A DNA stretch of 38,338 nucleotides from the NCBI GenBank assembly GCA_021780375.1, contig JAJXYT010000194.1, positions 1 to 38,338 of the forward strand. The letters are read 5' to 3'. The notes beneath the pieces are model-generated. The model did no database searches, was not told the origin of the DNA, and was given only the letters and a program-made list of their open reading frames with translations. Positions 1 through 14,066 of this stretch are shown piece by piece. The stretch is from a bacterium. GTDB taxonomy: Bacteria; Verrucomicrobiota; Verrucomicrobiia; Limisphaerales; UBA11358. The translations under genes were made by a program, and so were the position numbers. Within the stretch, counting starts at the first letter, position 1; each line of letters opens with the position of its first letter.

Positions 1-2135
1 TCCTCGCTCACGATGATGTCGTTGCGAAAATCCTGCGACGAGACCCAGAGCCGCACGATGTCCGCGCCCCATTTCTTCACATATGCCTCGGCGGTCTGCG
101 GTTTTTCATAACCGCCCTGTTTGCTCTTGGAAATCTTCTCGCGATCCGCATCCACGACAAAGCCGCTCGTGAGCACCCTTTTGAACGGCGCCGCGCCATT
201 GCCGGCCAGCGAGAGCAGCAGCGACGATTGAAACCAGCCGCGATGCTGGTCGGAGCCTTCGAAATACATGTCGGCCTGCCATTGTAGCGCGGGCGTCACG
301 CCTGCGGGTGCAGGCGGCATCTTACCGCTGGATTCGCGAGGCAAGGATGCCTCGCCAACTCGCAGGCTGGAAGCCGGCGCTACGTTGTGATGCAATTCTT
401 CCCGTCGCATCAAAACGCTTCGTGACGAGCTGCCGGAATCAATCCATACGTCAAGGGTGTCGCTGGATTTGTTGACCGCTTCCGCGCCCTTCCAACCTTC
501 CGGTTTCAAGAGCGACCAGAGTTCGACGGCGGATTTCTCGAACCAGACGTTCGAGCCGTGTTTCTCTATCAAATCGGCGGCGTTGCGGACGATTTGCGCA
601 TCGAGGATCGGTTCACCCTTGGCGTCGTAAAATGCCGGAATCGGCACGCCCCAGGTGCGTTGCCGCGAAATGCACCAATCGGGCCGCGTTGCAACGGCGG
701 CTTTGATGCGATTGACGCCCCAGTCGGGAACCCAATTCACGCGGTCAATCTCGGCAAGGGCGAGACCGCGAAAGGTTTCACCTTGGAGGGCAGCGCTTCG
801 TCGCCGCCCCAAAAGTTTGGGCACTGACGAAGCAGTGCCCTCCGGCACATGATCAATCTTGATGAACCACTGGTCCATCGCGCGGAAGATGACGGGCGTT
901 TTGCTCCGCCAGCAGTGCGGGTAGCTGTGATGATAATTTTCCTGGTGCAGCAGGGCATGGTGCGCCCGGAGTTCGTGCAAAACCGCTTCATTGGCGTCGC
1001 TTTTGCCGTGCTTTTCGAGAATCGATTTGCCGATCATTTCCTTTGGCATCTGCTGTTCGACCGGCAACTCGTTCGTGTAGGCGAACTTGCCGTCATCGTC
1101 CACCGGCGAATAAATCGGTAGACCGACGGACGAACCCAGGCCATAGTCCTCGAGACCGTGGCCGGGAGCGACATGGACGAAACCCGTGCCGGTGTCGCTG
1201 GTAACAAAATCGGCAGCGTAGGCTTTGCCTTTACGCGCCGGGATGAAGGGGTGCTGGTATTCCAACCTGGCGAGCTCTTCGGTCGGGAAAGGCGTTTGCG
1301 TGTAATTTGCCCAGCCGCATTTCTCGGCGACGACCGCAAGCAAACCACGGGATAAAATGTATTTTTCACCACCTGCTCCGACCTGGAGATATTGGAATTT
1401 CTCGTTGTAAGCGACGGCCAGGTTCGCCGGAAGCGTCCATGGCGTCGTCGTCCAGATGAGCACAAAGGTGTTTGCCCGGCCAATGACGGGAAACTTCACG
1501 TAAATGCTCGGGCTGACGTGGTCCTGGTATTCCACTTCCGCCTCGGCGAGCGCGGTACGGCAGGGAATGCTCCAATAAACCGGCTTTTTCCCACGATAAA
1601 CAAAGCCTTGCTCAACGATGTTGGCGAACAACCGCAATTCCTCGGCCTCGTATTCCTTGTTCAGCGTAAGGTAGGGATTCTCCCAGTCGCCCAGCACACC
1701 GAGCCGTTTGAACTGCACACGCTGGAGGTCAATGTACTTCCGGGCATACGTTTCGCAGGCCTTGCGAATGGCCGCGGCATCGGCGCTGGTGTCGCCCGCC
1801 TTGCGCATTTCCTGGGAAACCTTGAATTCAATGGGCAATCCATGACAATCCCAGCCCGGTACATACGGCGCGCTAAAACCGCGTAAGGACTTATATTTAA
1901 CAACGATGTCCTTAAGAATCTTGTTCAGCGCGGTGCCGATATGAACGTCGCCGTTGGCAAACGGCGGGCCGTCGTGCAGGACAAATTTGTCTTTTGCCCG
2001 GGCGCGGTTAGTCTGGATTTTCCGGTAAAGCCCGGCCTTTTCCCACTTTTTCAGCCGCTCCGGCTCCCGGGCCACCAGGTCGGCTTTCATCGGGAAATCA
2101 GTGTGCGGCAGATTCAATGTATTTTTATAGTCCAT
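1..2135 (-). CDS. ileS: Isoleucyl-tRNA synthetase, 3' end outside the window (partial)
   Basis: Reverse-strand translation from ATG at 2135 ([37 protein letters not shown]...[29 protein letters not shown]) through [42 protein letters not shown] and the KISKSK signature. It runs off the left edge, so it is absent from the ORF track. Confidence 0.95.
283..384. repeat. REP/BIME-like inverted repeat inside ileS (element A)
   Basis: Left arm TGTAGCGCGGGCGTCACGCCTGCG (283-306) matches the reverse complement of 361-384 (CGTAGCGCCGGCTTCCAGCCTGCG) at 19/24 positions. Internal perfect hairpin GCGAGGCA-AGGA-TGCCTCGC. 102 nt, read in frame as ...[35 protein letters not shown]... Confidence 0.8.
785..843. 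repeat. REP/BIME-like inverted repeat inside ileS (element B)
   Basis: GGAGGGCAGCGCTTCGTCGCCGCCCCAAA against the reverse complement of the right arm GGAGGGCACTGCTTCGTCAGTGCCCAAA. Read in frame as [20 protein letters not shown] between [10 protein letters not shown] and the VNWVPDWG motif. Confidence 0.8.
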
Positions 2136-10520: not shown

Positions 10521-11597
10521 ATGAAATTCGGCGGGTTCTTCCTGCTCGTGATGCTACCATTGGCTTGCCGCCCCTCGTCTCAAGAAGAGCAATGGTATCA
10601 AATCCTGAAGAAAGAAAAAATCGGGCAAGAACAACCTGTCCTGGTCACACCAGCAGGAGGTCAAGCCCGCACAGAAAGAATTCTTGTTTTTGGTCGAGGC
10701 CGGTGGATGGCAATCGCGCGCCAAATTGTGCAACCCGGAGAAAACCAAATGTTGCGTGGCGAAGCGTTGCGCGCCAAACGAAATCCGTCGGTAACCGAAC
10801 TATTGGTCGGGCAAGCCAATTTTGTTGCTGAACAGGCCAATCATCTCGATCAGTTCCAAGGTGTGGATGCAATTAATGCTGGAACTGAGCTTGCAGGAAT
10901 TATCAACAAATGGGAAGCGCCTACCGCTGTTGTGCCGGCACGAAGCCTGATGCGACGCGCGATCGCTCTTTGGCCAGATTGGACAACGTTCATTATGTCT
11001 TCCGGCCATGATCTGGCGCGTGACATTCCGCAACTGACTGAAATCCGTATCGAAGGCGGTGACACAAATGCGTTGGAGGAATATGCGGCATGGATTAAAT
11101 CAGCCGGGGAGGAAAAAGTTGATGAATACGCGGTTGAGGCCTTTGAACCACTTTGGCGTAATCCCACCAATTCGGTCGTTGCAACCGTGAGTGAGTGGCT
11201 TTTCAATGACCCAGCTTCGCCGTGGAGCAAATTGCCATGGCAGCGCTCCACTTTCCACGATCCACTTGATTCTGATTTGGTGAAACTGGCCGCGTTTCGC
11301 AAGCTGCTGGCAAGAGAGATGGAAAATCAGGTTGTCGTTGGTTCAATGCAATGGCAATCAGGTATTGGCATTAACATCCGTTACCATCTTCCCCGGAGCA
11401 GCGGCGGTTACCATTTTGACTGGCCGGATGCCGCAAGCCCGACTAATGGAACTAAAGTTGATATTCGTCGGTGCGACTGGATTGCTTGGAAACTGGCGAA
11501 GTCAAAACAGATTCCATTTTTCAATCCATTTGAAACAATTGAAAAACGGGATAAAGCCATTAAGAATGACGAAACGGAATTGATTAAATCAAAGTAA
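10521..11597 (+). CDS. Hypothetical protein with N-terminal hydrophobic segment
   Basis: Long ORF (MKFGGFFLLVMLPLACRPSS...). No family recognised. The N-terminal ~70 residues have odd composition and could reflect a frameshift. Confidence 0.5.
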   Translation: MKFGGFFLLVMLPLACRPSSQEEQWYQILKKEKIGQEQPVLVTPAGGQARTERILVFGRGRWMAIARQIVQPGENQMLRGEALRAKRNPSVTELLVGQANFVAEQANHLDQFQGVDAINAGTELAGIINKWEAPTAVVPARSLMRRAIALWPDWTTFIMSSGHDLARDIPQLTEIRIEGGDTNALEEYAAWIKSAGEEKVDEYAVEAFEPLWRNPTNSVVATVSEWLFNDPASPWSKLPWQRSTFHDPLDSDLVKLAAFRKLLAREMENQVVVGSMQWQSGIGINIRYHLPRSSGGYHFDWPDAASPTNGTKVDIRRCDWIAWKLAKSKQIPFFNPFETIEKRDKAIKNDETELIKSK

Positions 11598-12470
11598 TTT
11601 TTTCGTCAAAGCGACGAATTGTTTTAAGCTCAATTTCTCCGCGCGTTCCTGCGGCGGAATTTTCAGTTCCGCAGACGCTTGTTCCAATTTTTCAACCGGC
11701 CAGTCTTCGCGCAATAATTTCAGCACCATCTTCCGCCGTTGGGAAAAGGCGCGCTTCACGATTTTTACAAAAAACTCGCGTTGTTCCGCAGACAACAACG
11801 GCACTGGGCGGCGATCCAAAATTACGCAGGCCGAGTCCACGTCCGGTTCCGGAAAAAAGCAACTTTTCGAAATTTTGAAGGAACCGGCCGGCGCGTAATC
11901 GAGTTGCACCAGCAACGTCAGCAGACCGTAATCTTTGTCACCGGCTTTGGCCATGAGCCGTTGGGCGACTTCGTGTTGGAGCGTGGCCACGATTTTCTTT
12001 GGCGCGCGCGCGCCACAGGCCAGTTCCACCAGCATCGGCGAGGCGACGGAATACGGCAGATTGGCCACCAGCTTCCACGCGCTCCAATCCCGCGACTCGC
12101 GCTTGAGGAACTCCAAGGCGTCCGCGTGCAATAATTGGAGCGCCGGTCTCCGACCCGGCGCGTTCGGCGACCCATTCGACACCCCGGGTCGGAGACCGGC
12201 GCTCCGTTCCGAAGAAAATCGTTCGCACAAAACTTCCACCAGCCGCCCATCTTTCTCAATCGCCAGCATTTCACCGGCTCTTTCCAGAAGTAATTCCGTC
12301 AGCGGCCCCAGCCCTGGCCCGATTTCGAGAACCTTGTCGCCGCCGTTCAATTCGGCGGCTTCAATAATCCGCCGCAACTGGTTGCCGTCGTGCAGAAAAT
12401 TCTGGCCGAGGGATTTCGTGAGTTGAATTCCGCGCGACGCCAGCAGCTCCCGCATTTCAGAAAGTTTCAC
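11589..12470 (-). CDS. rsmA: 16S rRNA (adenine1518-N6/adenine1519-N6)-dimethyltransferase
   Basis: KSLGQNFLHDGNQLRRIIEAAELNGGDKVLEIGPGLGPLTELLLERA ... LVANLPYSVASPMLVEL. Confidence 0.94.
   Translation of the reverse strand: MKLSEMRELLASRGIQLTKSLGQNFLHDGNQLRRIIEAAELNGGDKVLEIGPGLGPLTELLLERAGEMLAIEKDGRLVEVLCERFSSERSAGLRPGVSNGSPNAPGRRPALQLLHADALEFLKRESRDWSAWKLVANLPYSVASPMLVELACGARAPKKIVATLQHEVAQRLMAKAGDKDYGLLTLLVQLDYAPAGSFKISKSCFFPEPDVDSACVILDRRPVPLLSAEQREFFVKIVKRAFSQRRKMVLKLLREDWPVEKLEQASAELKIPPQERAEKLSLKQFVALTKKLL
12137..12205. repeat. REP/BIME-like perfect inverted repeat inside rsmA (element C)
   Basis: GGAGCGCCGGTCTCCGACCCGG (12137-12158) and its exact reverse complement (12184-12205): 22/22 bp. 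69 nt total, read in frame as ERSAGLRPGVSNGSPNAPGRRPALQ. Confidence 0.92.
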
Positions 12471-12552: not shown

Positions 12553-13977
12553 TCAGTGTTTGTCTGTGTTCAAGACCTCCGCCAGCACGCCAACTGTCTT
12601 GGTCAATTGCGCCCTGGTGATGGTCAACGGTGGCGTGAAGCTGATGACGTTGGCGTGCTCGCCTTCGGGCAAAAGAATAAAACCCCGCCGCAACATTTTT
12701 TTGATGACCCGCATCGCGGCCTCGCTCGCGGGCTTGCCATCCGGCAATTGCAGTTCGACGCCGGCCATCAGGCCCAAACCACGAACAGAAATGCGGAGTG
12801 CGGAGTGCCGAAGGCGGAGAGAACCCAGCGCGTCCAGCAAAAATTCGCCGAGTTCGGCGCTTCGTTGGCAAAGGTTACGCCGGCGGATTTCCTCGATTTG
12901 CGCCAACGCCATCGCGCAGCCGACCGGATTTCCCAGAAACGTGCTGGTATGGATAGCCTCACCCCGCGACTTCGGCCAGGCGGCGTCCATGAGGTCTGCG
13001 CGCCCGACGCAGGCCGACAGCGGAAAACCGCCGGTCAATGCCTTGCCCAGGCAGATGAGGTCGGGTACCACGCCGCGGTGCTCACAGGCAAACCATTTTC
13101 CGGTCCGACCAAACCCCGTGTAGATTTCATCCAGAATCAACAGCGCGCCGTGTTCGTCGCAAAGTTTGCGGAGCCTCGGCAAAAATTCCGGCGGCGGGAC
13201 GTTGATGCCGCCGCGCGCCTGCACCGGCTCGGCCAGAATGGCGCCGATGGATTCGTGACGGAAGAGGTTGCGGATGCGAGCTTCAACCTTTCGGAGGGAC
13301 GAGTTATCCGAGTCCCTGACATCCGTGTTTTTGGGGACTCGTGCAACTCGTCCCTCCGTGCTCGCCGGGAACGGCACGAAATGGCCAAACTCGCGAAGCT
13401 GGTAATGGAACGGGCCTCGGAAAAAATCCCGGTGCGTGACGTTGAGCGCGCCGTATCCGAGCCCGTGATAAGCGCCGGAAAAGGCAATGACACCTTGTTT
13501 GCCGGTGGCCAGCATGGCGGTTTTGAGCGCGGATTCAACGGCTTCAAAACCGGAATTGGAGAAGATCACCTTTCCGGACGGACGAGTTACCCGAGTCCCT
13601 GATTTTATACGAGCCGCCTGTTTCCGGGACTCGGGTAACTCATCCCTCCGAATTTGTTCCCAACGTTCAAAGGCGAGCCGGCTCAATGCGCGCGCGAGTT
13701 CGGCCTTGCGCGCGTGGGGATGTACGTCACCCATGGCATGGGGCAGCCGGGCCAGTTGCCTCTGCGCGGCTTTCACCACGCGCCGGTTGGCATGGCCGGC
13801 GGCGGCCACACCAAACGCCGCGGTCAAATCAAGATACTTTTTCCCGCTGGCGTCCCAAACGTGCACGTCCCGGGCGCGATCCCAAACAATCGGCCAGGAA
13901 CCGTCACTCTCTAAAAATAAAATGTTCCGCGATTCAAAATCACGAAGCTGTTGCAGGATTTTTTTTGTTTTGGACAC
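12553..13977 (-). CDS. Class-III pyridoxal-phosphate aminotransferase
   Basis: VIFSNSGFEAVESALKTAMLATGKQGVIAFSGAYHG, LLILDEIYTGFGRTGKWFACEHRGVVPDLICLGKALTGGFPLSACVG. GTG start. Contains three in-frame repeat insertions. Confidence 0.88.
   Translation of the reverse strand: MSKTKKILQQLRDFESRNILFLESDGSWPIVWDRARDVHVWDASGKKYLDLTAAFGVAAAGHANRRVVKAAQRQLARLPHAMGDVHPHARKAELARALSRLAFERWEQIRRDELPESRKQAARIKSGTRVTRPSGKVIFSNSGFEAVESALKTAMLATGKQGVIAFSGAYHGLGYGALNVTHRDFFRGPFHYQLREFGHFVPFPASTEGRVARVPKNTDVRDSDNSSLRKVEARIRNLFRHESIGAILAEPVQARGGINVPPPEFLPRLRKLCDEHGALLILDEIYTGFGRTGKWFACEHRGVVPDLICLGKALTGGFPLSACVGRADLMDAAWPKSRGEAIHTSTFLGNPVGCAMALAQIEEIRRRNLCQRSAELGEFLLDALGSLRLRHSALRISVRGLGLMAGVELQLPDGKPASEAAMRVIKKMLRRGFILLPEGEHANVISFTPPLTITRAQLTKTVGVLAEVLNTDKH
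12789..12821. repeat. Heptamer tandem repeat inside the aminotransferase gene (element F)
   Basis: Reverse strand CTCCGCC TTCGGCA CTCCGCA CTCCGCA, encoding LRLRHSALRI. Confidence 0.65.
13293..13357. repeat. REP/BIME-like inverted repeat inside the aminotransferase gene (element D)
   Basis: GGAGGGACGAGTTATCCGAGTCCC against the reverse complement of the right arm GGAGGGACGAGTTGCACGAGTCCC(C). Confidence 0.88.
13576..13649. repeat. REP/BIME-like inverted repeat inside the aminotransferase gene (element E, same family as D)
   Basis: GGACGGACGAGTTACCCGAGTCCC (13576-13599) against the reverse complement of 13626-13649, GGAGGGATGAGTTACCCGAGTCCC (22/24). Shares the GGAGGGACGAGTT...CGAGTCCC arm with element D. 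Confidence 0.88.
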
Positions 13978-14066
13978 GATTTATGATTTTTGATTTACGA
14001 TTTACGATTGCGAAATTTTGCCGGGCCGCGAGCAAATCATAAATCATCAATCGTAAATCATAAATG
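13978..14066. repeat. Intergenic AT-rich heptamer array in inverted arrangement
   Basis: GATTTAT GATTTTT GATTTAC GATTTAC GATT, then a GC-rich centre, then AATCATAAATCATCAATCGTAAATCATAAAT. Confidence 0.8.

Follow-up and report, generated by a model that had tools for sequence, protein, structure and literature searches.

GTAG-tagged REP dimers are small non-autonomous repeats that are thought to be mobilised by REP-associated tyrosine transposases (RAYTs). GTAG REPs, their HH dimers with structured spacers and their intragenic copies have been described (PMC3733652, BMC Genomics 2013), and the largest number of intragenic copies was recorded in Opitutus terrae, while in other species tRNA synthetase genes are among those entered (PMC3733652). 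The same paper discusses the Rickettsia RPEs, palindromic repeats that lie in frame within many unrelated, apparently functional genes (PMC3733652).

The element examined here, a 100-bp palindrome within the isoleucyl-tRNA synthetase gene ileS, has much in common with the GTAG REP HH dimers of that paper: GTAG ends that face outward, small hairpin units, an inverted dimer arrangement, a structured spacer and many copies, some of them in frame in genes. It differs in its host lineage, its sequence family and its coding length (~33 aa against ~20-30 aa), and most of its exact copies lie within recognisable genes. GTAG stands at the foot of each unit and on the outside of the dimer, the 22-nt units with their ~7-bp stems and 56-bp spacer fall within the ranges given for this class (units of 20-40 bp, stems mostly of 6-9 bp, spacing of 20-100 bp), and the copy number in the genome is high. 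The terminal tetranucleotide CGTC, which marks CGTC REPs and the elements RPE-4 and RPE-6, is absent, as the ileS element ends in GTAG. With the Rickettsia RPEs it shares in-frame palindromic repeats across many unrelated genes; those elements differ in the CGTC ends of RPE-4 and RPE-6, the greater length of RPE-1 and their alphaproteobacterial hosts, and we claim no sequence relation. MITEs of insertion sequences are likewise small, non-autonomous and built on inverted repeats, but their terminal repeats, 15-30 bp long, are those of a parent IS, whereas the ends here are GTAG-tagged hairpins; our search for a parent covered Y1-type transposases.

Two palindromic inserts in one ileS gene

The 38,338-nt stretch analysed (the window) begins at a contig end. 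The minus-strand ORF at 3-2135, which ends at this contig end, holds the N-terminal 711 codons of ileS and matched TIGR00392 with 696.5 bits in a profile search (cut-off 621.4). The gene is divided over two contigs, and its remaining C-terminal portion lies on contig C210 (2-745) of the same genome, G000, a MAG of 4.0 Mb in 210 contigs with a completeness of 84.7%. No additional ileS copy was found in this genome, and the HIGH/KMSKS-type motifs are undamaged in the ORF. Similar IleS proteins occur in relatives named as Limisphaerales, ‘Verrucomicrobia subdivision 3’ and Pedosphaera MAGs; the source genome is a verrucomicrobial MAG of the Limisphaerales/Pedosphaera group.

The element occupies positions 284-383 (minus strand, 33 aa) and runs from GTAG to CTAC, so that both outer ends of the cruciform carry the tag; on the coding strand, from 383 to 284, it reads GTAGCGCCGGCTTCCAGCCTGC...GCAGGCGTGACGCCCGCGCTAC. 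Two REP units of 22 nt, each with a stem of ~7 bp that contains one mismatch, match the unit pattern exactly: unit 1 at 362-383 (minus strand, GTAGCGCCGGCTTCCAGCCTGC) and unit 2, inverted relative to it, at 284-305 (plus strand, GTAGCGCGGGCGTCACGCCTGC). The 56-bp spacer between them holds its own perfect 8-bp hairpin at 336-355 (GCGAGGCA-AGGA-TGCCTCGC), which also appears in the minimum-energy fold. The stretch as a whole folds with z = -3.9, and none of 200 dinucleotide shuffles was equally stable. Three of the six reading frames of the element are open, the ileS frame among them, and the insert would be translated as part of IleS. Dimer anatomy and a multicopy unit, the latter described below, identify 284-383 as an intragenic GTAG REP dimer of the kind already described. 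A known structured RNA was also considered and rejected, since an Rfam search of the window returned no family above its cut-off.

The original prediction had proposed an insertion of 34 codons and 102 nt, a multiple of three, at this position. Its inverted repeat, its internal hairpin and the translation that it quoted across the stretch were all recovered as described. The repeat proper, however, is 100 bp long, a length that on its own does not divide by three. The insertion is in frame as proposed, but the net gain is smaller: the loop measures 47 aa here against 24 aa or fewer, for the most part 15-24, in 93 of the 115 orthologs, which gives ~23-32 codons. Because no near-identical empty ileS allele was found among the orthologs collected, the exact joints of the insert cannot be fixed to the base, and a target duplication, if there is one, is not visible.

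Two features lay outside the prediction: a further palindrome read in frame in ileS, and the recurrence of different repeats at the same position in relatives. The second insert, at 785-845 (minus strand), follows DQWFIKIDH, belongs to a different family (GGAGGGCACTGCTTCGTC...) with 14 matches in its own genome, folds with z = -4.85 and is missing from many orthologs. We refer to this position as site 1 and to that of the GTAG dimer as site 2.

Further repeats were seen elsewhere in the window. At 12137-12205 a palindromic in-frame insert, SAGLRPGVSNGSPNAPGRRPAL, lies in a gene for an rRNA adenine dimethylase (ORF 11589-12470, minus strand), and a class-III aminotransferase gene (ORF 12553-13977, minus strand) has related palindromic in-frame inserts at 13292-13358 and 13575-13650. 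Adjoining the latter gene, an inverted pair of 7-bp-type repeats (ATTTACG-like) at 13979-14065 resembles in type the heptamer arrays that are translated at site 2 in relatives.

Genome copies and candidate transposases

Copy counts were drawn from genome searches, from a sample of 246 kb and from the surroundings of listed matches. The count called for by the original prediction gave 42 BLAST matches for the site 2 element DNA in its own genome, 3 of them besides the element itself near full length, and 108 matches for the REP unit pattern at up to 2 mismatches, against 18 for a reversed control. The exact unit pattern occurs at 23 places that form 20 clusters. Fourteen of these are read in frame within ORFs that gave a family match (MnmA, PheT, NrdJ, IleS, GH31, an ArgD-type aminotransferase, an RND permease, a radical SAM protein, DsbD, TrpC, GH28, HypF, GcvP and LysS), 3 are in unnamed ORFs and 3 have no long ORF. 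Inexact copies are present in ValS, ThiC, HsdR, DnaX, an HpnN-like transporter and a second place in GcvP. The repeat is read in several frames, giving VAQASRL, SAGVSPA, AGGTPAL or PQAGGLRY. No use was seen of the frame in which the tag becomes the stop codon TAG, as expected if stop codons screen the survivors.

Four aminoacyl-tRNA synthetases of this genome (IleS, ValS, LysS and PheT), together with MnmA, carry GTAG repeats. Enrichment of such synthetases among the genes hit is possible (P ~0.001-0.002 under assumed gene-length fractions), but the comparison was post hoc and we make no claim from it.

Five Y1_Tnp loci were identified in the genome. The gene on contig C35 encodes a RAYT-like protein and is flanked by two near-identical GTAG dimers of a different family from the ileS element. 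A strict scan for perfect stems around the RAYTs came back empty, and the C35 dimers were picked up by a general inverted-repeat search; no GTAG repeats were detected by the strict scan near the other four loci. Since the dimers at C35 belong to another GTAG family, we infer rather than observe that a RAYT moved the ileS element. The same C35 locus (L290, 400-1545) also has a ~40-bp direct repeat, CAATACGGCAGCGGAAACTTCGCCGTCAACTCGCGCACGCG, outside the RAYT gene and its GTAG dimers, which is unusual for this class of transposase.

Recurrent filling of two IleS loops

IleS sequences were gathered from 116 genomes or contigs, and ~115 orthologs of the order were compared. The site 1 loop has 17-28 residues in most of them and at least 30 in 34. 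The site 2 loop has at most 24 residues in 93 and at least 25 in 22 (21 without one near-duplicate), and it varies from 15 to 24 aa in orthologs without repeats; the ortholog alignment that had been suggested returned short loops for orthologs without a repeat-like insert. Consistent with a normally short loop at this position, as had been predicted, alignment shows both inserts to be absent from the solved bacterial IleRS structures 8c9e and 1ffy. Both sites are filled in 13 orthologs and empty in most. Other internal positions of IleS are rarely filled, apart from a minor third position near residue 112-119. Several long site 1 loops lack a palindrome and may be native. The P value for hot spots under uniform placement ignores relatedness, and we therefore relied on tree counts: on a quick FastTree tree, the insert state changed at least 24 times at site 1 and 12 times at site 2, gains and losses being undistinguished. 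Both positions are recurrent landing pads for repeats in this order. A fixed target motif as the cause of these hot spots was rejected, since the 78 GTAG flanks compared from this genome have only weak base preferences, with G scarce at -2 and T scarce at -4.

The insert DNA is palindromic in many orthologs (fold z below -3), and the occupants of site 2 comprise about six unrelated palindrome families as well as 7-bp tandem repeats. By reading of the sequences, GTAGGGCGCGCTGTCCCC... was assigned to orthologs L147, L171 and L180, GTAGGGACG... to L148 (both sites), L182 and L036, GTAGGACAGGCGTCGCGCC... to L047 and L155, GTTTGGAGTCCCGCC... to L152 and GCAGGGCAGGCATC... to L077; the insert of L039 belongs to yet another family. 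Tandem arrays of the heptamer class, defined by autocorrelation and inspection, lie at the IleS sites of L174, L226 and L211. Copy number was checked for the repeats of two relatives: that of L147 has 22 matches in genome G024, and that of L047 has 2-66 matches per genome in five genomes. Outside the two sites L180 and L182 share 96.7% identity, and at site 2 their families differ; L039 and L148 (87.1%) have different inserts at site 1 as well as at site 2. In L031, L147, L148, L180 and L182, GTAG opens the site 2 insert at the same aligned codon position. A description of unrelated families repeatedly filling one codon position of IleS was not found in the literature searched, which took in few subscription papers, and we claim no priority.

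Two orthologs have inserts of another character. In L224 (CAMCFN010000008.1), site 1 holds a 135-aa insert with an MshEN domain (PF05157, E 6e-21) that directly follows a GTAG REP-like head, GTAGGACAGGCTTCCAGCCTGTC; the domain could have been brought in with the repeat, or the insert could be an assembly error. The site 2 loop of this ortholog, 43 aa long, is likewise unusual. In L215 (JAJXZJ010000056.1), the 139-aa insert at site 2 resembles by eye a decayed start of the IleS editing domain (FPNTFLLLPCGSEQPLPASLAVAF...), and Pfam gave no separate match there.

An AlphaFold model of the 711 IleS residues, built with 61 sequences, resembles IleRS structures. Residues 586-616, the site 2 insert, and 433-447 have pLDDT below 50, with site 2 placed between a helix and a strand and site 1 between a strand and a helix. 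The original prediction had suggested such modelling, and the low confidence of the modelled insert is in line with its reading; since the overall quality of the model is moderate (mean pLDDT 70.7) and low scores extend to some catalytic motifs, we treat the structure as supporting evidence only.

Origin and significance of the inserts

Alongside the observed dimer anatomy, genome copies, in-frame reading, insert-free orthologs and other families at the same codon, our main reading, to which we give a probability of about 0.9, is that 284-383 is a GTAG REP dimer that entered ileS in frame by RAYT-type insertion and was kept under selection in a tolerant loop. A RAYT would have placed the hairpin into ileS, and copies that brought a stop or a frame shift, or that fell within structured parts of a protein, would have been purged. 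We propose that the ileS copy survived because the dimer is open in this reading frame and because the loop, from the helix after DVWIDSGSS to the strand of DMYFEGSDQ, would be tolerant of length. The insert peptide would be translated with IleS, tolerated and not required.

That the insert has instead been co-opted, its peptide or mRNA hairpin regulating IleS synthesis or forming an interaction surface, with selection keeping both loops filled, we consider improbable. Strong hairpins at both inserts and the filling of both loops among relatives, 13 of which have the two sites occupied together, would fit such a role, but neither site is filled in most orthologs, the inserts of close relatives are wholly different in sequence, length and family, and the same repeats occur in other enzymes of the genome. 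An assembly artefact, in which a repeat was misjoined into ileS, or a decaying ileS pseudogene is less probable again: the MAG is fragmented and the gene lies on two contigs, yet the frame stays open across two separate inserts, no other ileS copy was found, and independent assemblies from other sites have repeats at the same codon position. Least credible, to the point of being negligible, is a native lineage-specific IleS loop that is palindromic and repeat-like by chance. Loop length does vary naturally in the order (15-24 aa without repeats), but a homologous 47-aa loop, which the original prediction had named as the observation that would count against it, was looked for and found in no ortholog, and membership of the insert DNA in a multicopy family spread over many unrelated genes refutes this explanation for practical purposes. 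The prediction of a repeat-derived insertion is upheld by that multicopy DNA, the short loops of orthologs without repeat-like inserts and the low-confidence insert in the model.

Beyond the RAYT-type insertion of this one dimer, we suggest tentatively, and at somewhat less than even odds, that unrelated repeats enter the two IleS pads and replace one another at the same codon, such that an essential enzyme would record the turnover of repeats; the head of a resident GTAG repeat may be the next target.

The ‘extragenic’ palindromes of this genome are largely intragenic and keep reading frames open, even in a single-copy essential enzyme. Peptides such as AGVSPAS, VAQASRL, AGGTPAL and PQAGGLRY that recur in these proteins are repeat DNA and not domains, of which annotators should beware. 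The two IleS loops, readable in more than 100 species, offer a comparative system for how repeats choose, fill and swap their sites and for the appearance of new protein segments.
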